This document shows positions 6,087 to 33,149 of a stretch of DNA of 59,155 nt, in pieces. The DNA lies in contig JAQGON010000095.1 of assembly GCA_028293565.1 (NCBI GenBank), positions 1 through 59,155 of the forward strand, written 5' to 3'. A program made the position numbers and the translations under genes. Every line of letters begins with the position of its first letter. Position 1 is the stretch's first letter. The stretch is from Verrucomicrobiota bacterium (GTDB lineage Bacteria > Verrucomicrobiota > Verrucomicrobiia > Opitutales > Opitutaceae). The notes beneath the pieces are model-generated. The model saw nothing but the letters and a program-made list of their open reading frames with translations, ran no database searches and was not told where the DNA came from.

Positions 6087-6498
6087 CAGGAATAAAGTTT
6101 AAGGGCGAGGGAAGGGATCGCTGCCAGCGCGATTGCATGAGCCGAAACGCGAAGAGATCAAGCCAGCGGCGTGGGGAAAAGGCCGCGTTGCGTCTCTTTT
6201 TAGGCAGCCGAAGGATTGTATACGAATGATTCTGATCGGTTCTTGGTGTCAACCCCTTTGCGGAAGCGTCGTGGTGCATCCGATCGATGTTTCTGAAGGC
6301 GACGAAACGAAGGGGACTCCTCTTGATCGCGCTGCTTCGCTCCGGATCGGAATTGACAGGGAATGCGTCGGGAAAATGATACTATTATATACATTTATTT
6401 AGGAATTCACCCGGCAGGTTGATGTCAGCCTCCGCCAGCCAAGCGAACGCCGCAGCGTCATGCCGCTGGGTTTTCCTCGCAGGTCCGTCAAGCCGCTC
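6087..6498. other. 412-bp intergenic region between divergent genes
   Basis: No coding frame here looks real. The left part holds the upstream region of the minus-strand Tat-signal enzyme. The right part is unusually AT-rich (around 6376-6402) and contains the candidate promoter described separately. No repeat, RNA or attachment site was seen. Confidence 0.5.
6353..6383 (+). promoter_or_regulatory. Candidate sigma-70 type promoter for the first HpaI-type aldolase
   Basis: TTGACA at 6353-6358 is a perfect -35, followed after 19 bp by GATACT (6378-6383) and an AT-rich tract. The spacing is two bases longer than ideal. It would place a start near 6390, about 110 bp upstream of ATG 6499. Confidence 0.35.
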
Positions 6499-8726: not shown

Positions 8727-9401
8727 GTGACCTTCAGCAAGACGAATCTCTGGTATCTCGGCGCGCATTTCATGGCGAACATCCAGGCTCGCGACCGGGC
8801 GTCGGCCCGCCGGAATCTCGATCTCATCCTTCGCATGATCGAGCGCGAAAGCGATGGCCGGTTCGGATATTTCAAGCTCCGCACCCTTCAGGTTTTGACG
8901 AACGCCAACCGCGCGGCTTTCAACGCCGGAGCTTCCACCGAACTGCTGAATACGCACAGCCTGGAGATTGTCCGGGAAATTGACGAAGTTCAATCGGCCC
9001 CGCCGTTGCTCCGGATTGCGCACGGCGCCGTCGACAAGACCATCGGCCTGGTCCCGGTCGCCAACGAGTACCGCGACCGGATCGTCCAGGAGGCAATTGC
9101 CCATATCCGCGACCACTTTGCCGAGGACATGACGCGGGAAACCATTGGGCAAAAGCTGGGATGCAGCCCCACGCATTTCAGCCGGATATTTTCACAGTCC
9201 ACCGGGTACACGTTTCGCGATTTCCTGATCCAATGCCGCCTCGAAAAAGCCAAGGAGCTCCTGCGAAATTCGCACCTGCACATCCGTGAAATTGCCGAGC
9301 AGGTGGGCTACGACGATCCGTTCCAGTTCTCCAAACTCTTCCGAAATCGCCTCGGCATGAGTCCGCGCCAATTTCGGGAGGCGCGCCTGTCTGCCGGTTG
9401 A
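8727..9401 (+). CDS. AraC-family transcriptional regulator, short form
   Basis: A 224-residue protein. The N-terminal half is a helical domain (RNLDLILRMIERE, NRAAFNAGASTELL) like the linker domain of PocR/YesN-type regulators. The C-terminal half has the double HTH of AraC proteins: TIGQKLGCSPTHFSRIFSQSTG, and IAEQVGYDDPFQFSKLFRNRLGMSPRQFR. The start is a GTG, and an in-frame TGA 33 bp upstream limits the N-terminus. It lacks a cupin ligand domain, so the effector is unknown. It converges with the P450 gene, only 11 bp apart at the stops. Confidence 0.8.
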   Translation: MTFSKTNLWYLGAHFMANIQARDRASARRNLDLILRMIERESDGRFGYFKLRTLQVLTNANRAAFNAGASTELLNTHSLEIVREIDEVQSAPPLLRIAHGAVDKTIGLVPVANEYRDRIVQEAIAHIRDHFAEDMTRETIGQKLGCSPTHFSRIFSQSTGYTFRDFLIQCRLEKAKELLRNSHLHIREIAEQVGYDDPFQFSKLFRNRLGMSPRQFREARLSAG

Positions 9402-9412
9402 GTGCTCCTTCT

Positions 9413-10657
9413 TCAAGCGGCCCGAGCGGCGACGCGGGCGCGGAGATGGCTCAGGCCGCGCAACATGCCGTTCTTCCAAGCCGGATTGTCTTCCAGAACT
9501 TCCAGTCGATAGGGGCCGTTGAGCAGTTCTTCGAGTGCGGTCTGCACTTCCAGCCGGGCGAGCGATGCACCGAGGCAGAAGTGCGCGCCATGACCGAACG
9601 CGACGTGACGGACGGGCGAACGTTTGACGTCGAGGCGGTCGGGATCCGGATTGGCGGCGGGATCGCGGTTGGCCGAGCCCAGAAACTGCAGGACAATCTG
9701 GCCGCGGCGCAGCGACTGCCCGCGCAGTTCGCAGTCTTCGGTGACGACCCGGCGATTCCGCTGGAAGGGCGAGTCGAAGCGCAGCAGTTCCTCCACGGCG
9801 TTGCGGATCAGCGGCGGATTCGCGCGCAGCATCTCGCGCTCGGCCGGGTGCTGGTGCAGGCGGAGAATACTCGTCCCGAGGAGATTGGTGGTGGTTTCGT
9901 GGCCCCCAATCAGAATGGTGGTCAGCGTCGAGATCATCTCGTCGTCGCTGAGCTTGTCGCCGGCCTCGCGCGCTTGAACGAGCGCCGTCACCAGGTCGTC
10001 CTTCGGGTGTGCTTTTCGCTCTTCCGTCAAAGTGTGAAACCGGTTGCGCAGGCGCACGAGGGCGGCGTTGGAAGCGAGCAGGACATCCTCGGAAGGTCGC
10101 GGCGTCGCCATGAACTCGACGGTCTTGCCCGACCAGAGCTTGAAGTCGTCCCGCTCTTCCTCCGGCACGCCCATCATCTCGGTGATGACGGTGATGGGGA
10201 GCGGATACGCCAGGTCCCGCACGACATCCACCTCCTCGTTTCTCCCGGCGATCTGGGCCAGGATGCCGCGGACAACCTGGCGGATGCGATCTTGCAGGCG
10301 CCGGATTGCCGCCGGGGTGAATCCCTGCTGCACGAGCCGGCGCAATCGCGAGTGATCGCCGCCGTCGACGTTGATGAGGCCGGTGTTGTAATGGGAGATC
10401 AGCGGCCGGATTTTTTCCTGAAATGAAACCGCCAGTTCCGACTCGAACACCGCGGTCAGCCGGCGAACGCTGGAGAAGCGATCGGGGTTATTGAGCGTCG
10501 CCACGATGTCATCATGCCGCGTCAGCAGCCAGCAGCCCCATGATTGCGACCAGCAAACCGGGGCGTTTTCCCGCAATTCCGAATAGAGCGGGTAGGGGTT
10601 GCGCATGAATTCCTCGCTCTGCAACCGAGCATCGACGGGAAAATCGGGAGGGGTCAT
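9413..10657 (-). CDS. Cytochrome P450 monooxygenase
   Basis: A 414-residue soluble bacterial-type P450. The I-helix oxygen-binding motif is GGHETT (251-256), the K-helix ExxR is E290-R293 (EELLRF), and the haem loop FGHGAHFCLG (354-363) has the proximal cysteine at 361. ATG 10657 was chosen because it gives the normal length and N-terminus (PPDFPVDARLQSEEFMRNPYPLY); a frame to 10774 adds an unlikely arginine-rich tail. It lies 49 bp after the racemase gene on the same strand, so it is probably the last gene of the hydantoinase-type operon. No ferredoxin or reductase gene is nearby. Hydroxylation or N/O-dealkylation of the substrate is plausible. Confidence 0.9.
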   Translation of the reverse strand: MTPPDFPVDARLQSEEFMRNPYPLYSELRENAPVCWSQSWGCWLLTRHDDIVATLNNPDRFSSVRRLTAVFESELAVSFQEKIRPLISHYNTGLINVDGGDHSRLRRLVQQGFTPAAIRRLQDRIRQVVRGILAQIAGRNEEVDVVRDLAYPLPITVITEMMGVPEEERDDFKLWSGKTVEFMATPRPSEDVLLASNAALVRLRNRFHTLTEERKAHPKDDLVTALVQAREAGDKLSDDEMISTLTTILIGGHETTTNLLGTSILRLHQHPAEREMLRANPPLIRNAVEELLRFDSPFQRNRRVVTEDCELRGQSLRRGQIVLQFLGSANRDPAANPDPDRLDVKRSPVRHVAFGHGAHFCLGASLARLEVQTALEELLNGPYRLEVLEDNPAWKNGMLRGLSHLRARVAARAA

Positions 10658-10706
10658 CGGTGGATCGAGAGGGTTCGTTGCGGAACAGGCTTGATCGCGG
10701 ACTGCG

Positions 10707-11465
10707 TCAGGCGCGCGGACGCCGCGCGCGCAGCTGGGCGACTTCCGCCGCCGGAGGTTTCTGCCAGGTCCCATAGCGGCTCACCACCGGGAGGCCGGCC
10801 TGGCGCGCTTCGACGAGGAACTCCGTAGTTTTGAAACCGGTGAGGACCGGGTCGATGATCGGCACCCCCTGCAGGTCACCGCGACCGGCCACCGTGAGAG
10901 GACAGCTTTGGAGCGTGCAACCCATGAGGATGGCCTCCGCGCCGTCTTCCTCGATGCATTTCCGGGCCACGTCGAGCGTGCGCTGGACGAGAATGGCGGG
11001 ATCGGTGCGTTCGGCGTACGACTCGCGAGCCGACAGGTTGATGTGGCGGACGGACGCCAGCTTTGAATCGGTGCCGTAGAGCTGGGCGAGTTCGCGATAG
11101 CAGTGGACAGTCTTGGGCTCGGTCGCGATGACCGAGTAGCGCTGCGAGATTTGGTTCACGTAGTGCGCGCTGGATTCGAAGGCGCCCGTGACGACGATGT
11201 CGGCCACTTCCCGCGCCTCGCCCAGGCCGGGATCGTAGCAGCAGCAGATGAAGACGGCGTCGAAACCCTGGTCCTGTGCGCGCAGCACGCGTTCGACGAC
11301 CGCCGAGGCGCATTGAAGCCGATAGTAGATGTAGGTGACGTAGTTCAGCGGAAAGACATCCGCGATGTTCTCGAAGACGAGTTCGGTGTCGGGACGCGCG
11401 ACGCGACGGCAGTGCTCGGCTTCGAGCGTGACACCGGCGAAGGGATTCAGGACGAGGATTTTCAT
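10707..11465 (-). CDS. Asp/Glu/hydantoin racemase family protein
   Basis: A 252-residue protein beginning MKILVLNPF. It has the two-cysteine layout of the family: a catalytic cysteine in FICCCYDPGLGEAREV around residue 70-75, and a second in ILMGCTLQSCPL near residue 185. Members racemise or epimerise carbon next to a carbonyl, as in 5-substituted hydantoins, aspartate, glutamate or allantoin. Its ATG overlaps the stop of the sarcosine oxidase-like gene as ATGA (11462-11465). With HyuA/HyuB upstream, hydantoin racemase is the most consistent reading, but maleate isomerase-like relatives share the fold. Confidence 0.75.
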   Translation of the reverse strand: MKILVLNPFAGVTLEAEHCRRVARPDTELVFENIADVFPLNYVTYIYYRLQCASAVVERVLRAQDQGFDAVFICCCYDPGLGEAREVADIVVTGAFESSAHYVNQISQRYSVIATEPKTVHCYRELAQLYGTDSKLASVRHINLSARESYAERTDPAILVQRTLDVARKCIEEDGAEAILMGCTLQSCPLTVAGRGDLQGVPIIDPVLTGFKTTEFLVEARQAGLPVVSRYGTWQKPPAAEVAQLRARRPRA

Positions 11466-12601
11466 AGGAGTGCGGGGAAGCGGTTTAGCCGGAAAAGGGA
11501 AATGTCCTGCGCGGGCGCGCGCCCCTGGACCATTTGGGCAAGGACCTCGCCGATCACCGGAGTGAACTTGAACCCGTGGCCCGAACACGGTGAGCAGAGG
11601 ATGACGCGCGCCGTTTCCGGATGATGGTCGATGATGAAATTCTGGTCGTCGGTGAACGTCTGCAGGCACGCCTGATGCGCCACCGCACGTCCGGCGAGCG
11701 CGCCAAAGGTGTTGTGCATGAATTGGGAAAGATTCTGGAGGTCCGACGGCAACAGCCGGTCGTGCTGCGCGTCCGCCGAATCGAGGACGGTGCCGCCGCT
11801 GGTTTCGGCCGTCTTGACTGAACGGCCGTCGAGCGTGGGAAAACCGTAGAAGTCTCCGCCGCGGTTTTTCAGGATGAAGACCGGACAGACTTCAGGTCGG
11901 AAAAGGCTCATGTCGGCCATCTCGAACCAGACCTGGACCTTTCGTTTCAGCGTCAGGCTGACGCCCAGCTTGCGCAGTTCCGGAATGATCCAGGCTCCGG
12001 TGGTGAGGACCAGTTTTTCGGCGCGCAGCCGGCGCTTGTCCGTGCGCACCTCGACCCCGTTGGCATCGGCGCGCCACGAGATCATGCGTTCGTCGGACAT
12101 GAGGGTGGCGCCTTCCTCCAGGGCCGAAGCCGCATGGGCCTTCACGAAGGCTTCGGGATCGCCGAAGCCTCCCGCCGGGTCGAAATAAACAATGGAATCA
12201 TCGGGGAGGTTGAAGTGCGGATAGCGCGCCCGCGCCTCCTCGACCGTCCAGCACGCGTGCGGCAGATCGTGCGTGGCGAAACATTTTTCCATCCCGCGAT
12301 GAAAGGCACTGCCGACGACGCCCGCGGTGATCAGCCCCACGTTGTGGAAAAGCTTCACGTTTCGGCGGCGTTCGAGCTCTTCGATCAGCTCGTAGCTCCG
12401 GTGCATCAGGGGCACATAGGAAGGATCGAGGAAATAGGCCTTCCGGATAATCCGCGAATCGCCGTGGCTGCTTCCCCTTTGATGGCCGGGCTCGAACTGT
12501 TCGATCCCGCAGACCTGGAGGCCTTCCTGCGCGAGATGGTAGAGCGCGCTGCTGCCCATGCCGCCGACCCCCGCCACGATGACATCGTAGGAGTCAGGCA
12601 T
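11462..12601 (-). CDS. FAD-dependent N-methyl amino acid oxidase (monomeric sarcosine oxidase / SolA type)
   Basis: A 379-residue protein of the DAO family. The FAD dinucleotide motif is VAGVGGMGSS near residues 9-17. HGDSRIIRKAYF around 50 and CSGHGFKFTPVIGE near 340 are signatures of monomeric sarcosine oxidase and N-methyltryptophan oxidase. C312 (QACLQTF) matches the cysteine that binds FAD covalently in that family. Such enzymes oxidise N-methyl or secondary amino acids to the amino acid, aldehyde and H2O2. ATG 12601 overlaps the end of hyuB by 8 bp; an upstream GTG at 12649 would add 16 residues. Its place after HyuAB suggests it acts on the N-substituted amino acid released by ring opening. 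Confidence 0.82.
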   Translation of the reverse strand: MPDSYDVIVAGVGGMGSSALYHLAQEGLQVCGIEQFEPGHQRGSSHGDSRIIRKAYFLDPSYVPLMHRSYELIEELERRRNVKLFHNVGLITAGVVGSAFHRGMEKCFATHDLPHACWTVEEARARYPHFNLPDDSIVYFDPAGGFGDPEAFVKAHAASALEEGATLMSDERMISWRADANGVEVRTDKRRLRAEKLVLTTGAWIIPELRKLGVSLTLKRKVQVWFEMADMSLFRPEVCPVFILKNRGGDFYGFPTLDGRSVKTAETSGGTVLDSADAQHDRLLPSDLQNLSQFMHNTFGALAGRAVAHQACLQTFTDDQNFIIDHHPETARVILCSPCSGHGFKFTPVIGEVLAQMVQGRAPAQDISLFRLNRFPALL

Positions 12602-14279
12602 CGGAATGGCCGTAATGTTGGCGCGCGAAGTCCGGCGAAATGTAACCATTCTCCTGATCGAGGGCGATGGCCTCGCGCGTGCGTTCGCTTGGCGCGCCCC
12701 AGCCGCCGCCGCCCGGGGTCTCGATGCGGATGCGGTCGCCGTGTCGGAGCGTGACCACGGTCTTGGTCGGCAATTCCCGCTCTGTCCCGTCCGCCGAGAT
12801 CAGATAGGTGTGGGCGCCGCGGGCCTGCCCGCCGCCGTCGAGGCCCCAAGGAGTGAACCGGCGGCGGTCCGAACTCAGGGTCATGGTCGCGAGCTTTCCG
12901 AGGAACAGAAATTCGCGGACCAGCCCGCAACCGCCCCGGAATTTTCCGGCACCGCCGCTGTCGGCGATCAAGCCATACCGCACGACCCGGAGCGGATAGC
13001 TCCGCTCGACGACTTCAACCGGCGTGTTCTGCGTATTCGTCAGGTGGTTTTGCACGCCATCCTCCCCGTCGAGGTCGTGGCACGCGCCCGTCCCGCCGCC
13101 GTAGGTTTCGACGAAATTGAAATAGCCTCCGGTCGCCGGATTGATCCCGCCGATGTTGGTCAGGTTCATTTCGCTGCTGCACGCGGCGCAGACTTTCTTC
13201 GGCGCGCATTGGTAGAGGGCGCCCAGGATGACATCGACGACCCGCTGGTCGGTGAGGATGTTGGCGTTCCCGATCGCGGCCGGGAAACGGGCCTGAAGGA
13301 GCGAGCCCTCCTCGGCCAGGACGGTGATGGGGCGATGCGCCCCGGCGCAGCTCGGAAGGTCGGGATCGACCACCGCCTTCATGGCGTAATACACGCAGGC
13401 GCGCGCGGCGGAGATGCGGGCGTTGAGCGGTCCGGCAACCTGGGGCGACGTCCCGGCGAAATCGGCGACGAGTTCGCCGCCGCCGACGGTGAGCTTCACG
13501 CGAATCCGGACCGGCGGCCCGCCGGCGCCATCGTCATCGAGAAAATCCTCGAAACTGTACGTCCCCGGCTTCAGCTGTGCCAGGCCCGCGCGCATGCTGG
13601 CTTCGGCATGGTCGAGAATCGCGGCGAGATCCCGCGCGATCTCCGGAGCCGTCGCCACCTTGTAGCACTCGAGCACGCGCTTCGTCGCCGTCGTCGCGGC
13701 CGCCCATTGCGCCATGAGATCCCCCTTGAGTTCCCGCTGCGTGCGAACGTTCTGCCGGATGAGGTCGTAGATGGCCTCGTTCATGACCCCGCGCGAAAAC
13801 AGTTTGATCGGCGGGATCTGCAGCCCCTCCTGATAAATTTCCGTCACCCCGAACGGCATGCTGCCGGGCGCGTAGCCGCCCATGTCGACGTGGTGCGAGG
13901 TCGTCACGATCAGCAGGACCGGCTGTCCTGCGTGGAAAACGGCCGACAACATGGAGACGTCGGGCAGGTGTCCCGGGCCATCGGGGTAGGGCAGGTTCGT
14001 GATGACCGCGTCGCCCTCCTCCAGCTGCGCGAGCGGAACCTTGGCGAGGACCGAGCGGATCACTCCAGGCATGATGCCGAGGTGCAGCGGCGTGCCGACC
14101 TCTGCCTGCGCGATGATCTCGCCGTTGGGGAGGGCGAGCGCCGTCGAACAGTCGAAACGGTCGCGGATGTTCGGCGAATAACTCGCGCGGATCATGGCGG
14201 CGCAGACTTCCTCGGCGATGCCCCGCCAGCGGTTGCGGAGAATTTCGAGCTGGATGGGATTGACGGCGGGAAGGCTCAT
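12594..14279 (-). CDS. hyuB: Hydantoinase/oxoprolinase B-type subunit
   Basis: A 561-residue protein starting MSLPAVNPIQLEILRNRW. Family features include IAEEVCAAMIRASYSPNIRDR, followed by FDCSTAL and NGEIIAQAEVGTPLHLG, a central DVSML…HHVDMGG and a C-terminal GGCGLVREF with NTPVEVVERSYPLRV. HyuB works with HyuA in ATP-dependent hydrolysis of cyclic amides such as 5-oxoproline and N-methylhydantoin, or in related carboxylases. The start overlaps the HyuA stop as ATGA (14276-14279), so the two subunits are likely made in equal amounts. The C-terminal HSDA end overlaps the next gene by 8 bp. Confidence 0.88.
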   Translation of the reverse strand: MSLPAVNPIQLEILRNRWRGIAEEVCAAMIRASYSPNIRDRFDCSTALALPNGEIIAQAEVGTPLHLGIMPGVIRSVLAKVPLAQLEEGDAVITNLPYPDGPGHLPDVSMLSAVFHAGQPVLLIVTTSHHVDMGGYAPGSMPFGVTEIYQEGLQIPPIKLFSRGVMNEAIYDLIRQNVRTQRELKGDLMAQWAAATTATKRVLECYKVATAPEIARDLAAILDHAEASMRAGLAQLKPGTYSFEDFLDDDGAGGPPVRIRVKLTVGGGELVADFAGTSPQVAGPLNARISAARACVYYAMKAVVDPDLPSCAGAHRPITVLAEEGSLLQARFPAAIGNANILTDQRVVDVILGALYQCAPKKVCAACSSEMNLTNIGGINPATGGYFNFVETYGGGTGACHDLDGEDGVQNHLTNTQNTPVEVVERSYPLRVVRYGLIADSGGAGKFRGGCGLVREFLFLGKLATMTLSSDRRRFTPWGLDGGGQARGAHTYLISADGTERELPTKTVVTLRHGDRIRIETPGGGGWGAPSERTREAIALDQENGYISPDFARQHYGHSDA

Positions 14280-16324
14280 GGGACGCGAGGGGCGGTGGCG
14301 ACGCGCAACACCAGATTTCCGAAGGGATCCACCGTCGCTTCGTGACTCGGCGGCACCCACGTCGTGGTGTCGGGCTGCTCGATCACGGCCGGGCCGTCGA
14401 TGACGGCGCCGGCCGAGAGTGAAAACCGGCGGTAGACGGCGGCCTCGACCTTTTTCCCGTGCAGAAACACGTCGCGCTGGCCGATGCGCGCCGGGCTCGT
14501 TTCGGGCGAATAGGGTGGCGTCACGCTCTTGCGCTCGCGGAGAGTCACCACCGCCCACAGCGCCACGATTTCAACGGGCTCGTCGGCGAATGCATAACCG
14601 AAGAGACGGCGATGCGCCTCATGAAAGAGCGCCGCCACCGCCTGAATCTGGAGGGGACCGTCCGGGAGATCCACCGTGAGAGCGTGGCTCTGGCCCTGAT
14701 AACGCAGCTGCAGGCGACGATCGAGACGATGGAGTTTTTCGCCGTCGGCCTTGAGGCCGAGGCGTCCGCCGGCCTCGTGTTCGAGACTGGCGAATCTGCC
14801 GGCCAGGTCCGACACCGCCGAGGCGTCCAGCGGACGGAGCCACGTCTGAAGCTGCTCCTCGCGCATTTCGGAAATCAGCAAACCGACCGCCGAGAAGACC
14901 CCGGGCAAAACCGGCACGATCACTTCGGCGAGGCCCATTTCATCGGCGAGTTCCGCGCCATGAAGCGCGCCGGCGCCGCCAAACATGCAGAGCGAGAACC
15001 GCGCCGGGTCGTGGCCGCGCTCGACGGTGAGCTTGCGGATCGCGGCCGTCATCCGCGCATTGACGACCCGGATCATGCCCTCGGCCGTTTCTTCGACGCC
15101 GAGTCCCAGCCGCGATGCGAGGCGCGTTTCAATCGCCCGCCGAGCCGCGGCCAGGTCGAGATCCATGCCGCCCGCGAGCGACGAGCGCGCCGCGATGCGT
15201 CCGAGGACGAGATTGGCGTCCGTCACCGTGGGCTCGATCCCGCCGCGGCCGTAGCACACCGGACCGGGCACCGCCCCGGCCGATTGCGGACCGACGCGCA
15301 GCGCCCCGCCGGCGTCGATCCATCCGATGCTGCCGCCGCCCGCGCCGACCGTGTGGATGTCGATCATCGGGACGTTGATCGCGAGTCCGCTGATATCCGA
15401 GCGGCTCGAGTAGCCCATTTTCCCCCCGTGGATGACCGAGACGTCAAAGCTCGTGCCGCCGATGTCCGCCGTGATGAGATCGGACCGGCCGGTTTCCGCG
15501 GCAAGACGGACGCCGGCGACTACGCCGCCCGCCGGTCCGGAGAGCAGGGTCTCGACGCTCCGTTCGCCGGCGACCGCGGCGGTGGTCATGCCTCCGTTGG
15601 ACTTCATGATGAAGAGCGACGACGGCAGGAATTTCTGGCTCAGGCTCGATTTCAGCCGTTCGAGATAACTCTGCATCTTCGGCTGGACGTAACTGTTGAT
15701 CACACACGTGCTGAAACGTTCGTATTCGCCCTGGCTCCGGACGACCTCGTGGGACAGGCAAACCTTCGTTCCCGGCAGGTGATGCAGCAGGAGTTCGCGC
15801 ACGGCGCATTCGTGCGCGGGGTTCACGTAACTGTTCAGGAGACCGACGGCGATGGACTCTATTTTCCCCGCCCTGAGGAGCGAAATGACCGCATCGAGCG
15901 AACGGAGGTCGAGCGGCGTCTCGATCGTCCCATCGCACAGGATCCGTTCGGGCACTTCGAAGATGAGCGAGCGCGGCACGATCGATTTCGGACGGCGGCC
16001 GCGCAGATCATACAGGCGCGGACGGTTCTGGCGCTGGATGATGAGCACGTCGCGAAAACCCTCCGTCGTCAGGAACGCCGTTCGCGCACCCTTGCGCTCG
16101 AGCACGGCATTCGTGGCCACCGTGGATCCGTGGATGAGGTGATCGATTTCCGCGCGGTCGAGTCCCTCGCGCGCGCACATTTCGATGATCCCGTTGCAAA
16201 GGGCTTCGCCGGGGTCGTGCGGAGTGCTGTGCACCTTGTGAAAAAACCGGCGGCCGTCTTCGACATTGATGGCCACCAAGTCGGTGAACGTCCCGCCGGT
16301 ATCGATGCCAATGCGCCAGCTCAT
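14276..16324 (-). CDS. hyuA: Hydantoinase/oxoprolinase A-type subunit
   Basis: A 682-residue protein with the N-terminal IGIDTGGTFTDLV phosphate-binding loop (5-17) and a second ASKHA-fold element ITADIGGTSFDVSVI around 288-302. HGSTVATNAVLERKGARTAFLTT (about 65-87) is the hallmark of the HyuA/oxoprolinase family. The length matches the usual 650-720. With HyuB it forms the ATP-dependent cyclic amide hydrolase in the cytoplasm. The ATG overlaps the aminotransferase stop (16321-16324), and the stop overlaps the HyuB start. An acetone carboxylase-like activity is possible in this superfamily, but no gamma subunit gene is present. Confidence 0.88.
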   Translation of the reverse strand: MSWRIGIDTGGTFTDLVAINVEDGRRFFHKVHSTPHDPGEALCNGIIEMCAREGLDRAEIDHLIHGSTVATNAVLERKGARTAFLTTEGFRDVLIIQRQNRPRLYDLRGRRPKSIVPRSLIFEVPERILCDGTIETPLDLRSLDAVISLLRAGKIESIAVGLLNSYVNPAHECAVRELLLHHLPGTKVCLSHEVVRSQGEYERFSTCVINSYVQPKMQSYLERLKSSLSQKFLPSSLFIMKSNGGMTTAAVAGERSVETLLSGPAGGVVAGVRLAAETGRSDLITADIGGTSFDVSVIHGGKMGYSSRSDISGLAINVPMIDIHTVGAGGGSIGWIDAGGALRVGPQSAGAVPGPVCYGRGGIEPTVTDANLVLGRIAARSSLAGGMDLDLAAARRAIETRLASRLGLGVEETAEGMIRVVNARMTAAIRKLTVERGHDPARFSLCMFGGAGALHGAELADEMGLAEVIVPVLPGVFSAVGLLISEMREEQLQTWLRPLDASAVSDLAGRFASLEHEAGGRLGLKADGEKLHRLDRRLQLRYQGQSHALTVDLPDGPLQIQAVAALFHEAHRRLFGYAFADEPVEIVALWAVVTLRERKSVTPPYSPETSPARIGQRDVFLHGKKVEAAVYRRFSLSAGAVIDGPAVIEQPDTTTWVPPSHEATVDPFGNLVLRVATAPRVP

Positions 16325-17613
16325 GTGGTGCAGATTTCCGCCAGGACGCGGAGGAACGTTTCGACTTCCCGCGGCGAGTTATAGTGGGCGAGCGAAACCC
16401 GCACGACCTCCGGGACCCCGAGCGCGGCGAGCGTGTGTCCCGAGTAGGCATCGCTCACGCGGTCATGGACGATCACGCCGTGATTTCCGAACTGCTGCAC
16501 AATTTCCCCGGTGGGCCGTCCCTTGATCGTGAAGGCAAAGACCGCTTCGCGACCGCGGCCCGGGTCGCGCTGACCGTGAAGCGTGACCTGCGGATGACTG
16601 CCCAGGCCCGGCAGGCGCCCGACACCGTCGAGCAGGAGCCGGCTCAGCGCGGTCTCATGCCGGGCAATCGCCTGCATGCCGGCCGCGAGCTGGCTGCGCC
16701 GGTCGCGTTGCGCGACGGAGGAATCCGCCTGGGTCCCGAGCCACGACAGATAATCCACCACGCACGTGAACGCGGCAAATCCGCCGGGATCGCGCGTTCC
16801 TAGGTCCCAGTCGCTCGAGGGTTTTCCGAGCAATTGCGCGTGCGGCAGTTTTGCGAGACGCGGGCTGACATAGGCGAAGGCGAGGCCCGGTTTGGAAAAG
16901 ACCTTGTAAGCCGAGAACACGTAGGCGTCCACGGCGGAGGCGTCGACGTCGACGAGGCAGTGCTGGGTGTGTTGGGCGCCGTCGACCACGATGATGGCTT
17001 GCGGCGCCCGGGAGCGCACGCGTCCCACGACGTCGTTCAAGTCGGACTGTCCGCCCGTGATGTTGGACGCATGGATGAACGACACCGCGACGGTGCCGGA
17101 GTCGACCTGCGCGGCGAACGCGTCGGCGTCCAGTGCGCCGGTTTGCCGGTTGAGCGGAACCACGCGGCGTTCCAGCCCGTGGCGGTCCGCGAGAAATTTC
17201 GCCGCGTCGTAAAACGAGGCGTGATCCAGCTCGCTGCAGACCAGGTTGGTGCCGCGAATGCCCGCGACGGCAGCGGAAAGGAGGCGGAACGCGCAGGCGG
17301 TCGTGCTTTGGTCGCAGAGGATGGTGCCGTCGCGCGCGTTCAGGAACGTCGCGACGTCCGCTCGTCCGCCCTTGATCACGCGGCCGACTTCGCGCGAGGC
17401 GGCGTTTTCGCGCCCGGCGTTGTCCGGCAGCGAGGCGTACTTCTGGTCGGCGTCGAAGACGCTGCGAAGCGTCAGCCCGCCGCCGGCGTTTTCAAAATAA
17501 ACGCGCGCACCGGTGAAGGGATCGCGTTCGGCGTGGAGGAACCGGCTGCGGATGGCCTCGAGCAGCGAGGCATCGAAGAGTTTCTCCGGAGGGCTGACGA
17601 TGACAGCTGGCAT
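16321..17613 (-). CDS. Class V aminotransferase / cysteine desulfurase-like PLP enzyme
   Basis: A 430-residue fold-type I PLP protein. Visible are the N-terminal VYFENAGGG, H131 (SELDHASF) that stacks on PLP, D211 in IIVVDGAQHTQH, and K237 (VFSAYKVFSKPG) as Schiff-base lysine. The desulfurase active-site cysteine loop is not obvious, so a role as aminotransferase, lyase or epimerase is more likely than Fe-S assembly. It is translationally coupled to hyuA (ATGA) and probably handles the amino acid made or consumed in this pathway. The 139 bp upstream to the DapA-like gene shows no terminator. Confidence 0.8.
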   Translation of the reverse strand: MPAVIVSPPEKLFDASLLEAIRSRFLHAERDPFTGARVYFENAGGGLTLRSVFDADQKYASLPDNAGRENAASREVGRVIKGGRADVATFLNARDGTILCDQSTTACAFRLLSAAVAGIRGTNLVCSELDHASFYDAAKFLADRHGLERRVVPLNRQTGALDADAFAAQVDSGTVAVSFIHASNITGGQSDLNDVVGRVRSRAPQAIIVVDGAQHTQHCLVDVDASAVDAYVFSAYKVFSKPGLAFAYVSPRLAKLPHAQLLGKPSSDWDLGTRDPGGFAAFTCVVDYLSWLGTQADSSVAQRDRRSQLAAGMQAIARHETALSRLLLDGVGRLPGLGSHPQVTLHGQRDPGRGREAVFAFTIKGRPTGEIVQQFGNHGVIVHDRVSDAYSGHTLAALGVPEVVRVSLAHYNSPREVETFLRVLAEICTT

Positions 17614-17752
17614 GCACCCACTCTAGCAGTTTGAGGCGCGCGAAACCCATGGGCTTTCGTGCTCTTTCATGTTGTCCGGTGCGGGTCGTTCGAAGGGAGC
17701 CTTTGATTGAATCCCAGCTGGTCTGCAGGACTTCCTGCGGCGAGAGCTTCCG

Positions 17753-18691
17753 TTAGGGCGAGCGCCACGCTTCGCCCAGGGAAGCGCGCAGCGCCGCCGC
17801 ATCCGCTTCGGTGGGACCGGCATAAGGCGGCAGGAGGCGAAGGGGAAAGTCCGGCGCTTTCATCCGGTAGAGCAGCTTGTCGAAAGCGCCGTCCATGTGG
17901 TAGCGACCCGAGCCCAGCCGGAGGAGGGTCGCGAGCATCTCGCGCAGCTGGACGATCATCTCCCTGCGCCGGGCGTCGTCGCAGGACACGAATTCAAGTC
18001 CCCGCCGGTCGGAAACGGAGGAAAGCGAAATCAGCAGGCCGCAATCCCCGACGGTGCGCGCTTCCGCGTAGCCGAATTCCGTGAAGAAAAAGCGCAGCCG
18101 CGGCGAGAGGTCCATCAGTTCACGGACCTTGACCGGATCCTGAATCCCCGTCTTCACCGCGACGAGGTTGGGATGGGCGGCCACCAGCCGGCGGTACTCG
18201 GTCGCTCCCAGGATGCGGCCCGCCCGCGAGAGGTTATAGTGCAGAAACCGGCAGTCGGGGAAACGGCCGCACGACTCGGCAAAAAAGCGATCGAGCTCCG
18301 TGTCGTTGAGCGCGCCCCAGCTCGGAAGCGAGAGCTGGAACTCCCGATATCCCAAGGCGCGCCCGAATTCGATCCGCTCGATCACCGTGCCCAGCGAAAG
18401 GGAAATGACCCCCAGCATCGGTTGCGCGGAATGCCGGAGAGAACTCTTCCAGAACGCCGTCGCGATCTGGCGAAACTGGGCCTCCGACACGGCATAGCCT
18501 TCGCCCGCGGTTCCAAAAACATAGAGATACGGCGTCAAGCCGCGCGCGATCGCGGCGACCTGCTGGTCGAAGGCGGCTTCGTCGAACTCGAAGCGGTCGG
18601 TCCAGGGCACGACGGCCGTGCCGAGGATGGCGCGGTCCTGCATGGGGGTCATCTTCGGGGTGGGGAGAGTCGACACGGCGGGCTCAGGCAT
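17753..18691 (-). CDS. Dihydrodipicolinate synthase/N-acetylneuraminate lyase family protein
   Basis: A 312-residue TIM-barrel class I aldolase. K180 (NLVAVKTG) is the Schiff-base lysine, Y152 (LHYNLSRAG) is the catalytic tyrosine, and GTAGEG (60-65) is the carboxylate-binding loop that replaces GTTGE. The family condenses or cleaves pyruvate with an aldehyde. Catabolic members also dehydrate sugar acids. Its ATG 18691 overlaps the stop of the HpaI-type aldolase by 8 bp; ATG at 18652 is an alternative. Two aldolase-type genes in tandem suggest that the pathway yields a 2-oxo acid that is split to pyruvate or a close analogue. Confidence 0.82.
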   Translation of the reverse strand: MPEPAVSTLPTPKMTPMQDRAILGTAVVPWTDRFEFDEAAFDQQVAAIARGLTPYLYVFGTAGEGYAVSEAQFRQIATAFWKSSLRHSAQPMLGVISLSLGTVIERIEFGRALGYREFQLSLPSWGALNDTELDRFFAESCGRFPDCRFLHYNLSRAGRILGATEYRRLVAAHPNLVAVKTGIQDPVKVRELMDLSPRLRFFFTEFGYAEARTVGDCGLLISLSSVSDRRGLEFVSCDDARRREMIVQLREMLATLLRLGSGRYHMDGAFDKLLYRMKAPDFPLRLLPPYAGPTEADAAALRASLGEAWRSP

Positions 18692-19505
18692 AGGTGGATT
18701 TTGCCGGCGGCCTGGCGGCAGGGGGGAGGCCGGTGAATTGTTCGCGCATGAAGTCGACGCGCTGTTTGAAATAGAGGCCGAGCCCATAGACGTCGGAGCC
18801 GCAGCCGAAGACGCGGTAGCCTTCCTCCAGCAATTCCGGCAGCGGCGCCATCAATCCCGGCAGCATCGCAACTTTTCCATGCTTGCGCGCCGCCGCTCCG
18901 ATCCGCTTGCGTGCGCTCACGATCTCCGGGGAGTCCATCTTGCCCACCTTGCCGATGCGGTGGCTGAAATCTCCCGCGCCGAAAAGCAGCATGTCAAAAC
19001 CCGGAACCGCGGCGATCTTCTCCACGTTCTCCAAGGCCTCGGGCGATTCGATTTGCAGGACCACCACAATCTCCTCGTTGGAGTGACGAATGTAGTCGTC
19101 CATCGGAAGCTGGCAGAAAAGGCCGTCGACATTTCCGCCGTCGAGCGCGCGTTTCCCGAGCGGGTGAAACCGGGTCCATTCCACGATCTGGCGGGCTTCC
19201 TCGGCCGACGCGACGTGGGGCACGATGATGCCGGTGGCCCCGGCTTCGAGGGGGAGGATGTAATTGCTGTAGCTTCCCCGCGCGACCCGGACGAAGCAGT
19301 CGACGTCGTGAATGCGCGCGGCACGAATCTGGTTTTCGATGGCAACCCAGTCATTGGGGACATGCTCGGTGCACAACCAGACGGCATCGGTCCCGGAAAG
19401 TCCGGCGAGCTCGATCGCGCGCGGATCGGAAAGGTTGAGTTTCAGCATCGTCGGGATTTGCCCCTGACGAAGCTGCGCTAGCACACGACTGCCTCGGGTT
19501 TTCAT
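18684..19505 (-). CDS. HpcH/HpaI family aldolase, second copy
   Basis: A 273-residue protein collinear with the aldolase at 6499-7317 and sharing all key residues: E47-H48 (CTEHVPNDW), R73 (FVRVARG), E153 (QIESPEALENVE), D179 (GAGDFSHRIG). It is the first gene of the eight-gene minus-strand operon and is divergent from the GntR regulator, whose start lies 258 bp away. It most likely releases pyruvate from a 2-oxo acid in the pathway. The start MKTR is shared with the paralogue, supporting ATG 19505. Confidence 0.86.
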   Translation of the reverse strand: MKTRGSRVLAQLRQGQIPTMLKLNLSDPRAIELAGLSGTDAVWLCTEHVPNDWVAIENQIRAARIHDVDCFVRVARGSYSNYILPLEAGATGIIVPHVASAEEARQIVEWTRFHPLGKRALDGGNVDGLFCQLPMDDYIRHSNEEIVVVLQIESPEALENVEKIAAVPGFDMLLFGAGDFSHRIGKVGKMDSPEIVSARKRIGAAARKHGKVAMLPGLMAPLPELLEEGYRVFGCGSDVYGLGLYFKQRVDFMREQFTGLPPAARPPAKSTYA

Positions 19506-19763
19506 GGAAGGATGTGGGCGAAGGCAGGGATTTCAGTTGGAAGTTTCATGGTTCGGTATTCCCGGCGGAGGTTGCCCGCTTGGACTTACACAGAAGTTTC
19601 CTCGTTTGGATACAAGAAAATTCAAAATGGTCTAGATAGAAGGCAAAGGTTGGTTTTCAGCGGAGTTCTGGTGTTTTCCTGTTTCCCGAATCCCGACTTA
19701 TTGACATTAATGGATATCCTCCTAGGTCTTTTCCCGCGCGGGACCCGATCTTCCGTTCGATTT
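19506..19763. promoter_or_regulatory. Divergent regulatory region of the GntR gene and the eight-gene operon
   Basis: 258 bp between the aldolase ATG (minus) and the GntR ATG (plus). It is more AT-rich than its surroundings. TTGACA lies at 19701-19706, but no good -10 follows. Short palindromes GGATATCC (19712-19719), CCTAGG (19721-19726) and CCCGCGCGGG (19733-19742) cluster just before the GntR start and could be part of an operator. No single operator can be assigned. Confidence 0.35.
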
Positions 19764-20555
19764 ATGAGTGAACCCGATAATGAAGGCTTTCCGACTGAAA
19801 ATGCCCACACGCAGCGGGCATATGAATTTATCCGCCAGAAGATCCTGGGCGGCGCATATTCGCCTGGTTATCGATTGAAGACCCTTGTGCTGGCCAAAGA
19901 GTCGGGGGTGAGCCGGACTCCCGTTCGGGAGGCTTTGCGCCAATTGCAGAGCGAGGGGCTCGTGGACATCCTGCCCCGGCTGGGAGCGAGCGTTCGTGCG
20001 GTCAACTTCGCGCAGTTCAAGGAAATGTGCGAGGTGCGGCTTGCGCTGGAGTCTTTTTCCGCCGAACAAGCGGCGCGCAATCGGGAGCCGGAGGACATCA
20101 TCGATCTGGAGGAAGCGTACCGGGAAATGGAAAAACTCGTCGCGGCTCTCGAGCAGGTGAGCGACTCCGAGAAGCTGCTGCAGGAGCTGGTGGCCCAGGA
20201 TATCAGATTCCATCTCGCGGTGCTGAAGGCGGCGGGAAATAGCCTGCTCAAGGCGGAGGTGCTTCGCCTGCACCTGTTCAGCCGGCTCGTGCGACTGGAT
20301 GTCGGCAAGATGCCGGAAGGTTCGCGGGATCAGATCGTCGTCGACACCCCGGAGCGCCGGCGGTGGGTGCTCAGCTGTCATCACAAGATTTTCCTGGCCA
20401 TTCAAAAGGGGGAGCCCGAGGCGGCCGGTCGGGCGATGCACGAGCATTTGAGGGATATCATCGATCGCGGTGTCATGGCGATGGCGCGCGCCCAAAAGCG
20501 CCGCGAAGAGCGAGCGGTGCCTCATTCGGGCGCGTTCTACGCGACGAACAACTGA
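19764..20555 (+). CDS. GntR-family transcriptional regulator, FadR/FCD subfamily
   Basis: A 263-residue protein. The winged HTH is at about 14-75 (AYEFIRQKILGGAYSPGYRL, VLAKESGVSRTPVREALRQLQSEGLV). The C-terminal FCD domain has the metal-site pattern D-x3-H (QDIRFHLAVLKAAGN), H in LSCHHKIFLAI and H in MHEHLRD. FCD proteins sense organic acids through a bound metal and usually repress an adjacent catabolic operon. It is divergent from the aldolase-hyuAB operon and 245 bp upstream of the TonB receptor, so it could control either side. ATG 19764 was chosen over an upstream extension to 19512 because conserved sequence starts right after it. Confidence 0.88.
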   Translation: MSEPDNEGFPTENAHTQRAYEFIRQKILGGAYSPGYRLKTLVLAKESGVSRTPVREALRQLQSEGLVDILPRLGASVRAVNFAQFKEMCEVRLALESFSAEQAARNREPEDIIDLEEAYREMEKLVAALEQVSDSEKLLQELVAQDIRFHLAVLKAAGNSLLKAEVLRLHLFSRLVRLDVGKMPEGSRDQIVVDTPERRRWVLSCHHKIFLAIQKGEPEAAGRAMHEHLRDIIDRGVMAMARAQKRREERAVPHSGAFYATNN

Positions 20556-20668: not shown

Positions 20669-20680
20669 TTGACATTGACA
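20669..20680 (+). promoter_or_regulatory. Two overlapping TTGACA-type -35 boxes upstream of the TonB receptor
   Basis: TTGACATTGACA gives two adjacent perfect -35 hexamers about 120-130 bp before ATG 20801 in a short AT-rich stretch. No convincing -10 follows at 16-18 bp, so only the -35 similarity is seen. Confidence 0.25.
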
Positions 20681-20800
20681 GCGTTTTTAGATTCTGAGGA
20701 ATTCAAGTGTATGCAAAGAGTGTCGAAGCGCGTGGGTTTCATTGTTTCGAGCTCTTTCTTTCCGGTACATGCTCAGTTCCCAACACCAAATCAGACCTGC

Positions 20801-22939
20801 ATGAAAACGAACTCCGTCTCCCAGACGTTAAGGAAGTTAATGTTAGTCGGTTTAGCGATCGCGTCCCCATCGGGACTTCTCCTGGCCCAAACCGCGAGTC
20901 CGCCTGCGACAACGGACACGTCGAAGCTCCAAGATTCGGACGCCGTGAAATTAAGTCCCTTTACGGTTTCGGAGACCCAGCGATCGCCCTGGAATTCCCA
21001 GCAGACCTTTTCCGGCAGCCGCGTCGCGGAAAACATCATGGATGTGCCGATCAACATCTCGATCATCACGAGTGATTTTCTCCAGACCATTGGCGCCACC
21101 AATCTCACTGAGGTGCTCAACTATGCCGGCAGCGGCGTGAACCAGCGCGTGAGTTATCGTGACGACGTTTCGATTCGCGGGTTCCGCGAACAGGTCAACC
21201 GCGATGGCATCGCGTACACCGGGTACGGCAACCCGGGTTACTACGACGTTGATCGCATCGAGGTCATCAAGGGGCCGACGGCCCTGGTCTATGGTAACTT
21301 CAGTTCGATCGGGGGCACGGTGAATTATGTGACGAAGCGGCCGACCGCGACTGCGCAGGGCGAGTCGCATCTGTCGGTGGGCAGCGATTCCTTTTATTCC
21401 GCGGATGTCACCCAGCGGGGACCGCTGACCCAGGACGGAAAGGTCCGCTATCGGGTGACGCTGGGCGGCCAATATTTCGGCGGTTACAAGAACGAGGAAT
21501 ATGAAAACATCCGTGCCGTGAGCGGCAGCCTGGACTGGAGCGTCTCGAAGCAAGTTGAAGTGCACTTCGACTACGCGCACGGCGACAATGTCCGGCGGGA
21601 TTTCAACCGGTCGCTGGTCGATCCGGTCACGAACACGCTCTCCAATCTTCCCGCGGATTTCTCGACCAGCGCGCCCTGGAGCAAGGTGCAGTCGACCAAC
21701 GACCGTTACCGGATCGAAGTCATTTATCAGCCGACCAGCAACCTCACGGCGCGCGTCCTCGGCAACAGCTTCGAGAACGACTACTGGTACCGGATTCCCC
21801 AGCCGACGCCGGGGTTGAAGGCGTCGGAATCTCCCAATTACGTTTCGATCGGCCAGCGCTTCCTCGCCTTCGATTTGAAGGACAAGAAGCAGGACGTGCA
21901 GGCGGACATCACCTGGACTGTTCCCATTGCCGACTTCGCCAAGAACCGGCTCACCGCAGGCTGGGCGGACGTGTACAGTTCCAATTTCCAGAATCTGCTC
22001 ATCGCTCCCTTGCCCGACCTGCTGATTTCCACCCCGTTCAACCAGCGGCCGGGCGAGCCCGCGAGGTCGACCTGGGCCTACCTGCTGGAAAACACGACGT
22101 CGCGGTCCGAGGGTTGGACCGCGTATGTGCAGGATGCCCTGACGCTTTTCCATGATCACCTGATCCTGGTGGCGGGCATCCGCGATGTCCCGAGCGGTGC
22201 CACGAGCAAGGGCGTCGCCACCACCGTGCCGCGTTACGGCATCGTCTACAAGGTGAACGACGGGCTCTCGCTCTATGGCGGCTATGCGAAATCGTTCAGC
22301 CCGCTGTCGGGCTCGGATCTCTTGGGACATGCCTATCAGGACATCTATGGAGAGGACAAGGAAGTCGGCATCAAGGTGAACACGCTGGGCGGCCGGCTGT
22401 TTGGCTCCGTCGCCTATTTCGATATTCTCAACGATCCGGTCGTGACCCAAGTGCAGGTCATCGACCCGCGGACCGGCCTCCTGGTGTTCGGAAACCAGCA
22501 GACGGGCAAGCAGACGAACAAGGGCTTCGAGGTCGACATGGGGACACAGTGGGACCTCGGGCCCGGGCAGCTGCTCGGCTTCGCCACCTACTACGCCGCC
22601 GACCCGAAGGATGTCACGGGCCTGAAGCCCGCGCGCGTCGTGTCGCGCAAGGCGACCGTTTTCGTGAGGTACGAATTCAAGACCGGGCCGGCGAAGGGCT
22701 TCAGCTTCGGCGGAGGCATGTCGGAATTCGGCAGCCAGCTCGGCACGGGTATCGCAGTCGAGCCCGGCTACACGCTCTATAGTGCGATCCTGGGTTATAC
22801 CGTGAAGCGCTGGAGTGTCGCGGTGAACTTCGACAATATCACCAACGTCAAGGATGCCATCCTCGGGTCCGAAGCAAACTTCTCGATCAACACGGAGCGT
22901 CCTTTCAGCACCAAGGTTTCGTGTAGCTACCATTGGTAG
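20801..22939 (+). CDS. TonB-dependent outer membrane receptor
   Basis: A 712-residue protein with a signal peptide (cleavage near LLLAQ, residue 29). The mature N-terminus carries KLSPFTVSE, a pattern common in Opitutaceae receptors. The plug domain follows (VPINISIITSDFLQ, DVSIRGFREQ, IEVIKGPTALVYG, GGTVNYVTKRP), then a 22-strand-type barrel ending in the aromatic YHW. It imports a ligand too large or scarce for porins, possibly the oligosaccharide handled by the next genes. ATG 20801 gives a normal signal peptide; the frame is open to 20669. It is a single receptor without a SusD partner. Confidence 0.93.
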   Translation: MKTNSVSQTLRKLMLVGLAIASPSGLLLAQTASPPATTDTSKLQDSDAVKLSPFTVSETQRSPWNSQQTFSGSRVAENIMDVPINISIITSDFLQTIGATNLTEVLNYAGSGVNQRVSYRDDVSIRGFREQVNRDGIAYTGYGNPGYYDVDRIEVIKGPTALVYGNFSSIGGTVNYVTKRPTATAQGESHLSVGSDSFYSADVTQRGPLTQDGKVRYRVTLGGQYFGGYKNEEYENIRAVSGSLDWSVSKQVEVHFDYAHGDNVRRDFNRSLVDPVTNTLSNLPADFSTSAPWSKVQSTNDRYRIEVIYQPTSNLTARVLGNSFENDYWYRIPQPTPGLKASESPNYVSIGQRFLAFDLKDKKQDVQADITWTVPIADFAKNRLTAGWADVYSSNFQNLLIAPLPDLLISTPFNQRPGEPARSTWAYLLENTTSRSEGWTAYVQDALTLFHDHLILVAGIRDVPSGATSKGVATTVPRYGIVYKVNDGLSLYGGYAKSFSPLSGSDLLGHAYQDIYGEDKEVGIKVNTLGGRLFGSVAYFDILNDPVVTQVQVIDPRTGLLVFGNQQTGKQTNKGFEVDMGTQWDLGPGQLLGFATYYAADPKDVTGLKPARVVSRKATVFVRYEFKTGPAKGFSFGGGMSEFGSQLGTGIAVEPGYTLYSAILGYTVKRWSVAVNFDNITNVKDAILGSEANFSINTERPFSTKVSCSYHW

Positions 22940-33096: not shown

Positions 33097-33149
33097 GCGA
33101 CAACGAAAGAACGAGGGCACGGCCGGGAGGCAATCGCGGCAATCACGAT

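Follow-up and report, generated by a model that had tools for sequence, protein, structure and literature searches.

A Verrucomicrobiota bacterium of the family Opitutaceae carries what appears to be an accessory catabolic island that joins the ATP-dependent opening of a cyclic amide to amine oxidation, a reading to which we give about an even chance. The island, with 17 to 18 shared genes, takes up about 24 kb of a 59,155-nucleotide stretch (GenBank assembly GCA_028293565.1, contig JAQGON010000095.1, positions 1 to 59,155), referred to here as the window, and is built around an operon encoding a HyuA/HyuB-type amide hydrolase, a sarcosine oxidase-family enzyme (SOX), a racemase and a cytochrome P450. 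The substrate would be an amino-acid-derived cyclic amide with a substituted nitrogen (a lactam, hydantoin or diketopiperazine, by type), and it probably arrives linked to a sugar or sugar acid, a point held less firmly than the joining of the two activities. N-substituted cyclic amides include solvents, drug metabolites, and glycated and peptide-derived compounds, and to our knowledge few bacterial routes for them have been worked out. The parts of the island are known, the combination and the substrate are new, and the gene set is not described in the open-licence literature searched. If the reading is correct, the island is a whole uptake-and-breakdown set that places a candidate epimerase, an ATP-dependent ring-opener and a bacterial PAL-like lyase in one pathway.

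The operon lies on the minus strand and runs from 19505 to 9413, where a sequence-only reading of this DNA had placed eight mostly overlapping genes. They are, in the order of transcription:

18684 to 19505, minus strand: HpcH1, pyruvate aldolase of the HpcH/HpaI family (PF03328, 100 bits)
17753 to 18691, minus strand: divergent lyase of the DHDPS/NAL superfamily (PF00701, 23.3 bits against a cut-off of 22.1)
16321 to 17613, minus strand: AT5, class V pyridoxal phosphate (PLP) enzyme, cysteine-desulfurase-like (PF00266, 127.6 bits)
14276 to 16324, minus strand: HyuA, ATP-binding subunit (PF01968 Hydantoinase_A, 312.5 bits)
12594 to 14279, minus strand: HyuB, metal-site subunit of the ATP-dependent cyclic amide hydrolase (PF02538 Hydantoinase_B, 576 bits)
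11462 to 12601, minus strand: SOX, FAD enzyme of the monomeric sarcosine/N-methyl-amino-acid oxidase family (DAO, 150.6 bits; PRK11259, 397.5 bits)
10707 to 11465, minus strand: epimerase of the Asp/Glu/hydantoin racemase family (PF01177 Asp_Glu_race, 95.1 bits)
9413 to 10657, minus strand: cytochrome P450 (Pfam p450, 101.8 bits; a core member in three genomes)

All eight genes match a Pfam family and all except the racemase also match NCBIfam models (7 of 8), which bears out the names given earlier, weakly so for the DHDPS family. Likely starts are 18691 for the DHDPS-like gene, 14279 for HyuB, 12601 for SOX, 11465 for the racemase and 10657 for the P450. From HpcH1 to the P450 the junctions measure −8, +139, −4, −4, −8, −4 and +49 bp, so that genes overlap by 4 or 8 bp at five of seven junctions, the exceptions being the 139 bp before AT5 and the 49 bp before the P450; within the AT5-to-P450 core the overlaps number four of five. 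A block within the 139-bp gap is strongly conserved in a related locus, L031, and AT5-to-P450 therefore probably has its own promoter. The operon is thus best described as two predicted sub-units, split before AT5. Pfam scans here and below covered the window genes other than a few open reading frames, such as w53938, w55708 and w57211.

The active sites of three operon enzymes carry the argument. The nearest solved relatives of HyuA are an N-methylhydantoinase (7hk5, 487.7 bits) and caprolactamase (CapAB; 6yra, 430.1 bits), HyuB agrees, and both subunits are homologous to these enzymes over nearly their full length. When their alignments are compared with the residues discussed in PMC8453981, where CapAB is shown to require bicarbonate, HyuA keeps the equivalents of the CapA ATP-site residues D11, D18, K32 and D295, and HyuB keeps all four CapB metal ligands (D41, H99, D102 and H124). 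These checks support HyuAB as a predicted ATP-dependent ring-opening amidase, although one distinct from caprolactamase proper, whose NCBIfam equivalog cut-offs are missed (549.5 and 251.2 bits against 1000).

SOX passes the cut-off of PRK11259, the N-methyl-L-tryptophan oxidase model (257 bits), and its nearest solved chains are monomeric sarcosine oxidases (7exs, 237.5 bits; MSOX, about 200 bits), with fructosyl-amine oxidases far below (33.6 bits at best). Its alignment keeps Cys315, Lys265, Arg49, Arg52, Tyr254 and Lys348 in what we take to be the MSOX numbering, in which Cys315 presumably binds FAD covalently, Lys265 activates O2, the Arg and Lys residues anchor the substrate carboxylate, and His269 and Tyr317 belong to the pocket. 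The residues for FAD, O2 and carboxylate that unite MSOX and MTOX are thus present, and they support a putative covalent-FAD secondary-amine oxidase with carboxylate anchors, for which the substrate would be a secondary amine with a free carboxylate, other than sarcosine itself.

The racemase shares its family and a cysteine dyad with the allantoin-hydantoin racemases and with OpaE and NozR; Cys75 and Cys183 correspond to Cys79 and Cys184 of the former as numbered in PMC12661438, which is also the basis of the following comparison. Its nearest solved chains are the putative hydantoin racemase 3qvj (KpAllR in that paper) and the allantoin racemase 5lfd. Whereas Asn/Asp12 occurs in 100% and Thr/Ser118 in 84.2% of allantoin-hydantoin racemases, the window protein has Phe9 at the position of KpAllR Asn12 and Ala at Thr118, with Thr119 retained. 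OpaE-like epimerases have hydrophobic residues in the pocket, OpaE itself acting on a ketopiperazine-containing product (PMC12661438), but the window residues match neither the OpaE-like nor the NozR-like set exactly. This supports a predicted two-cysteine epimerase that lacks the allantoin/hydantoin-racemase pocket, and we read these pocket differences as pointing to a cyclic substrate whose side chain is not of the ureido kind.

Less can be read from the remaining operon enzymes. AT5 matches 15 NCBIfam models but reaches the cut-off of none (171.5 against 352.35 for TIGR01976), and its alignment keeps the PLP Lys and the carboxylate Arg and has no Cys at the SufS-type position; we presume these roles of Arg and Lys, and take SufS Cys364 to be the catalytic Cys of the desulfurases. 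A cysteine desulfurase identity was rejected on the absent catalytic Cys and the missed family cut-offs. HpcH1 matches 2-dehydro-3-deoxyglucarate aldolase (4tv5, E 8e-27), and the DHDPS-like lyase, present in the window and in L031, matches 3na8 at E 2e-4. PksS, YjiB and BioI are among the nearest solved chains of the P450 (among the best 60 of 143), matches that are uninformative on substrate, and the operon holds no ferredoxin gene. Relatives of two of these enzymes lie elsewhere in the window. A second HpcH/HpaI aldolase at 6460 to 7317 (plus strand), outside the island, is 67% identical to the HpcH1 homologue of L031, and a second class V PLP protein at 4779 to 6086 (minus strand) has a Tat-like N-terminus by eye, PvdN as best model (146.3 against a cut-off of 650) and homologues, 37 to 39% identical, in L083 and L075.

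The island was recognised by its conservation. Searching 84,980 species genomes for exact peptide patterns from the window HyuA, a method blind to remote relatives, yielded 23 loci, with L031 (90%), L032 (74%) and L050 (55%) standing out; L031 and L032 come from metagenome-assembled genomes labelled Verrucomicrobia and Opitutaceae, and a protein identity of about 90% between L031 and the window points to the same group for the latter. The shared unit has 18 genes from an AraC gene (8727) to 33120, all of which occur in L031 and in L069, a neighbouring stretch of the same contig, and 17 of which occur, rearranged, in L032 and L073, both on one contig of genome G600. In addition to the operon, it comprises these genes and a candidate regulatory site:

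8727 to 9401, plus strand: AraC-family regulator (HTH_18, 84.7 bits; L031 90%, L032 66%)
19512 to 20555, plus strand: GntR/FCD regulator, true start probably about 19764 (FCD 79.7 bits, GntR 56.6 bits; L031 83%, G600 59%)
19605 to 19616, no strand assigned: candidate GntR operator TTTGGATACAAG, between the divergent HpcH1 and GntR genes, from an alignment of three intergenic regions
20669 to 22939, plus strand: TonB-dependent receptor, start probably 20801 (PF00593, 98.7 bits; TIGR01783, 155.3 against a cut-off of 223.5)
23010 to 24566, plus strand: protein that looks secreted by eye, perhaps a propeller (no Pfam match; weak NCBIfam match to beta-1,2-mannobiose phosphorylase, E 0.013)
24578 to 26059, plus strand: paralogue of the 23010 to 24566 protein (beta-1,2-mannobiose phosphorylase again matched weakly, E 0.029; retained in L031 and G600)
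26157 to 27317, plus strand: NagA-like amidohydrolase (TIGR00221, 189.6 against a cut-off of 225.65; 2vhl, E 6e-36)
27361 to 28617, plus strand: MFS transporter, anion/sugar-acid type (PF07690, 169.2 bits; TIGR00893 D-galactonate transporter, 129.2 against 395)
28641 to 29687, plus strand: putative PAL-like alpha-hydroxyglycine lyase, w28593 (residues 38 to 309 of 364 align to rat PAL 3fvz, E 2.3e-28)
29695 to 31503, plus strand: TIM-barrel, glycoside-hydrolase-like protein (AlphaFold predicted local distance difference test, pLDDT, 65.5; best Foldseek match beta-amylase, E 5.8e-6, template modelling (TM) score 0.31)
32428 to 33120, minus strand: small conserved protein, carbohydrate-binding-like by eye only (no Pfam match at E 1; L069 82%, L073 57%; adjoins HpcH1 in G600)

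The whole operon is held by L031, together with the GntR, TonB receptor, AraC and two propeller-like genes, while L069 holds the NagA-like, MFS, PAL-like and TIM-barrel genes and the one at 32428 to 33120; an SDR gene at 31537 to 32316 is absent from L069 and is therefore placed outside the shared set. The eight-gene operon described earlier is accordingly real and correctly placed, but as a unit it divides in two, and the functional unit reaches to about 33120, taking in an outer half (TonB receptor, transporter, amidohydrolase and PAL-like lyase) that had been missed. In G600 the six-gene core and the outer genes converge, HpcH1 lies beside the 32428 to 33120 homologue, and extra genes are inserted, including one more propeller-like copy and a gene of the DAO family. 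AT5-HyuA-HyuB-oxidase-racemase-P450 is thus a fixed core, accompanied by the same outer genes in three genomes that between them show two arrangements, and the AraC gene adjoins it in both, convergent at the P450 end in the window and upstream of AT5 in L032. The aldolases are separable from the core, which in L032 stands apart from HpcH1; the DHDPS-like protein has no match in L032/L073, and G600 has a different gene of the DHDPS family (55.2 bits) some 5 kb upstream of its core. The pyruvate endpoint suggested earlier, which depends on the homology of HpcH1 and on aldolases outside the fixed core, would at present be weak or unproven. The candidate operator block is common to the window, L031 and G600; the pattern TTGBATVCAA occurs once in the window and at least once in 25 of 100 shuffles, which is weak support for an operator. 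A site at 6215 to 6226, upstream of the second HpcH gene, has two mismatches to the candidate operator, and the window count of such sites is not above chance.

Ratios of nonsynonymous to synonymous substitution (dN/dS) for the 18 orthologous genes (13 against L031 and five against L069) range from 0.022 to 0.198, with the racemase lowest (0.022, the most conserved gene of the cluster) and HyuB next (0.062); such low values indicate purifying selection and argue that the operon is not a chance assembly. For the GntR comparison with L031 the alignment includes three stops, which we place before the likely start. In the comparison with G600, which is more distant, the ratios are 0.07 to 0.39 at dS values of 0.75 to 1.48, where the NagA row with L073 (0.39) spans 88 residues only; the row pairing w23010 with L069 (0.69) is a paralogue match. 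Window neighbours outside the shared block are not found at E 1e-10 in the L031 flanks (L070, and L069 beyond the 32428 to 33120 homologue). HyuA, which has a single match within the window's own genome, is not found at E 1e-60 in the genus mates G066 and G260, and G066, G260 and G586 have no racemase, no HyuB at E 1e-90 and no TIM-barrel gene. Counting the window's own genome, the racemase profile (E 1e-15) matches one of 387 sampled genomes of the phylum, HyuB (E 1e-90) 19 of these 387, and the TIM-barrel gene (E 1e-60) three of 273 genomes of the order. The differing flanks, the genus mates lacking the island and the few matches are the grounds for regarding it as a putative accessory island, rare among the samples searched.

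HyuA has a match in 70 of the 273 genomes of the order, and 60 of the 72 matches lie in open frames of 1,183 to 1,373 residues, which we take to be the length of fused 5-oxoprolinases. In a quick tree of HyuB (matches of at most 420 query residues excluded, six overlapping loci left out beforehand, and 68 rows reduced to 66 on removal of overlaps, one G601 gene still appearing twice as L101 and L109) the window's split pair stands apart from the same-order rows, as expected of an acquired module, and its nearest outside relatives are L102 (G325, family f54) and L050, from a spirochaete. With tblastn at E 1e-6, the window SOX is found, besides the window, in two of 30 HyuAB loci of at least 9 kb (L031 and L032), a count that omits shorter loci and the overlapping L001, L054, L076, L089, L090, L091, L092, L099 and L100 and in which L046 and L049 are one contig and L106 and L107 one genome. 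HyuAB and the oxidase are therefore not always apart, if only narrowly so, and the earlier proposal that cyclic-amide hydrolysis is coupled to secondary-amine oxidation in a likely catabolic pathway is supported. On plasmids no match reached 60% identity (290 records matched the racemase and 912 matched HyuB), and five HyuB neighbourhoods from them have no tblastn match to the window SOX at E 1e-6; an annotated FAD-binding oxidoreductase lies about 4 kb from HyuB in Thermomicrobium, and on Paracoccus pFER4 the alpha and gamma genes of a sarcosine oxidase lie some 5 kb from it. Other HyuAB neighbours were also seen. The spirochaete genome behind L050 (G601) has a racemase-family gene (29% identity) directly after a different HyuAB pair (L109, 8431 to 9168), and Halocatena has a maleate isomerase, by annotation, next to a HyuAB pair.

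Several outer genes bear on how the substrate might be taken up and trimmed. Matches of the TonB receptor are uninformative on substrate, the structure model of the propeller-like 23010 to 24566 protein is too poor to use (pLDDT 39.8), and Foldseek gives the TIM-barrel protein only low-TM matches, the top ones mostly glycoside hydrolases. The regulators, the TonB receptor and the MFS transporter are consistent with a pathway of inducible uptake. In G268, a genome outside the 70 that match HyuA, the PAL-like gene is again paired with the TIM-barrel gene, so that these two constitute a separate module. Over most of its length w28593 aligns with animal PAL, and it keeps Arg533, His585, Tyr654, His690, Arg706 and His786 of 3fvz, which we take to be the PAL active site (a Zn His triad and catalytic Arg, Tyr and Arg). 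Its top-scoring chain is another NHL protein, Drosophila Thin, aligned in four short pieces, and NHL repeats being common, the lyase label is putative. Animal PAL is fused to a copper monooxygenase, whereas w28593 is a bacterial protein in a catabolic-looking island that includes a P450. In PMC12508155, PAL is the only comparable dedicated lyase known to its authors.

Taken together, these parts suggest the following route. The TonB receptor and MFS transporter would import the compound, and the outer hydrolases would trim it. The racemase, by a chemistry deduced from its Cys dyad, would epimerise an acidic carbon of the presumed ring so that both isomers are usable. With its catalytic residues in place, HyuAB would then open the ring at the expense of ATP to give an N-alkyl amino acid. 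SOX, which has the cofactor and carboxylate anchors needed, would oxidise the C-N bond of this secondary amine to an aldehyde, H2O2 and a primary amino acid, the N-substituent presumably being unlike that of sarcosine. The PLP enzyme may act on the amino acid, and the HpcH aldolase may cut the resulting keto acid to pyruvate. The P450 and the PAL-like lyase could remove an amide-bound glycine-like group as glyoxylate, by hydroxylation and then dealkylation. Alpha-hydroxylation followed by PAL chemistry is the animal route to amidated peptide hormones. The fuller version, in which P450 alpha-hydroxylation and a PAL-type lyase remove the glycine-like group before a lactam, N-glycated or N-alkylated, is taken apart by the epimerase, the ATP-dependent lactamase and the amine oxidase, is a speculative one that we think unlikely; if true, it would add a new way of degrading cyclic amides of Maillard, opine or peptide origin. 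The closest precedent known to work is the nmp cluster of Alicycliphilus, which likewise has a HyuAB-type amidohydrolase and an amino-acid oxidase in one cluster: PMC6987047 lists, by similarity to Alicycliphilus BQ1, the N-methylhydantoin amidohydrolase nmpA/nmpB, the amino-acid oxidase nmpC and nmpF under N-methylpyrrolidone metabolism. Unlike the island, the nmp rows of that table contain no racemase, PLP enzyme, P450, aldolase, TonB or PAL-like gene.

A number of observations weigh against the joining of cyclic-amide opening to amine oxidation. The close HyuAB relatives L050, L102, L106 and L107 (60 to 67% HyuB identity) have no window-type oxidase alongside, nor any oxidase, racemase or AT5 match beside HyuAB, and such an oxidase is also absent from the remaining 24 HyuAB loci of 9 kb or more, which are more distantly related; HyuAB by itself is therefore no proof of an N-alkyl substrate. 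SOX has Thr for MSOX His269 and Gln for Tyr317, departing there from MSOX and MTOX, and misses the TIGR01377 cut-off (256.1 against 479.65), so that a sarcosine-like activity cannot be assumed. The same genome has a second SOX-like gene (36%) on contig C223 (L083), which is near sugar-type genes and without HyuAB, and the oxidase may thus belong with sugar-type genes, not with HyuAB. Neither the operon nor the scanned window genes include an aldehyde dehydrogenase like nmpF (succinate-semialdehyde type). The core is known from three genomes only, the DHDPS-like call is a weak one, and the proposed sugar link depends on outer genes that are mostly unannotated and is held less firmly. The residues best support an order of epimerisation, opening with ATP, oxidation at nitrogen and processing of the amino acid and keto acid; the sequence speaks for the enzyme chemistries only, and the substrate is something we infer.

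The alternatives differ mainly in which of these genes they leave unexplained. A glycated or opine-like substrate such as an N-(deoxy-sugar) pyroglutamate, in which HyuAB opens the lactam, the SOX-family enzyme splits off the sugar oxidatively and the aldolases take the sugar acid, is a more specific form of the reading preferred here and, so specified, rather unlikely. It would suit the sugar-type setting (GntR/FCD, sugar-acid-type MFS, NagA-like and TIM-barrel proteins, possible propellers, and an HpcH close to 2-dehydro-3-deoxyglucarate aldolases), the proximity of the SOX-like gene on C223 to a TIM-barrel paralogue, and the distant relationship of fructosyl-amine oxidases to SOX. On Priestia filamentosa pBEH4 (L085), moreover, HyuAB is flanked by genes for a SIS-domain protein and a PfkB kinase, along with one for a GntR regulator, a possible glycated cyclic amide pathway and an arrangement that we take to be that of fructosamine (frl) operons. 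SOX is nevertheless much nearer to MSOX than to any solved fructosyl-amine oxidase, the scanned cluster genes include no kinase or SIS deglycase, and the racemase and P450 would be unneeded. That HyuAB is simply a 5-oxoprolinase with neighbours engaged in unrelated work, as relatives of the same clade lacking these neighbours and the frame lengths found across the order might suggest, is improbable: the six-gene core is kept in three genomes and two arrangements, most of its junctions overlap, and the genus mates G066 and G260 are without HyuA at the threshold used. A biosynthetic cluster, with the P450, the epimerase and the PLP enzyme as tailoring enzymes for a small molecule, is very improbable. 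The polyketide-pathway P450 PksS is among the nearest chains, and the racemase pocket lacks Asn12 and Thr118 as do those of the natural-product epimerases OpaE and NozR in PMC12661438, but the operon has no assembly-line or ligase gene, and amidase, amine oxidase and aldolase with importers and two regulators suggest breakdown.

Two known ureide pathways were also weighed. In an allantoin-like pathway for an N-methylated ureide, HyuAB would substitute for allantoinase, the PAL-like protein would serve as ureidoglycolate lyase and the PLP enzyme as ureidoglycine transaminase; the nearest solved racemases, the PAL-like lyase and the class V PLP enzyme are those expected. The pocket changes at positions 12 and 118, against the residues given in PMC12661438, nonetheless keep the probability of this pathway low; Pfam and NCBIfam name no allantoicase or urease in the operon (no genome-wide search was made for either), and the oxidase has no obvious role on urea nitrogen, so that we consider it most improbable. 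Least credible of all is a true creatinine/N-methylhydantoin pathway with an unlinked N-carbamoylsarcosine amidase. Its N-methylhydantoin amidohydrolase is represented at family level only, an N-methylhydantoinase being the nearest solved chain of HyuA and HyuB, and an oxidase of the SOX family is present. However, no isochorismatase-family gene, to which a linked N-carbamoylsarcosine amidase would belong, occurs among the scanned window genes, and the only one found in the genome (an assembly of 239 contigs) is unlinked, on contig C134, with 49.2 bits against a Pfam cut-off of 27 and below every NCBIfam cut-off (the best, biuret amidohydrolase, 27.2 against 370; no check was made that NCBIfam includes a model for N-carbamoylsarcosine amidase). 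Pfam and NCBIfam name no creatinine deaminase in the operon (no genome-wide search was made), the SOX pocket is altered, and the racemase, P450 and TonB receptor would be unneeded. The lack of a linked amidase, which agrees with the departure from the creatinine branch pointed out from the sequence alone, is the reason that the known pathway is set aside. Ergothioneine, biotin, tRNA-hydantoin and cyclic dipeptides were also considered as speculative substrates.

Some further genes in or near these loci may be recorded. On C223, positions 106 to 1221, 1434 to 2711 and 11960 to 13642 of L083 fall in a region with the SOX-like gene (36%), a Tat-type class V PLP protein, TonB receptors and a TIM-barrel paralogue (36%). 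In G600, a DAO-family oxidase (L073, 17962 to 19191) lies next to the NagA-like gene and is 25% identical to SOX, with soxB as best model (106.2 bits against 529.45). In the window, the minus-strand region from 37090 to 50535, near the island, encodes large proteins with glycoside hydrolase matches (GH127, GH2, and weakly GH42 and GH10) and CBM4/9 matches, a carbohydrate-degradation region, and 51787 to 53907 (minus strand) encodes a metallopeptidase of the M81/MlrC family with homologues of about 30% identity in four of the 30 HyuAB loci of at least 9 kb (L041, L049, L051 and L052).

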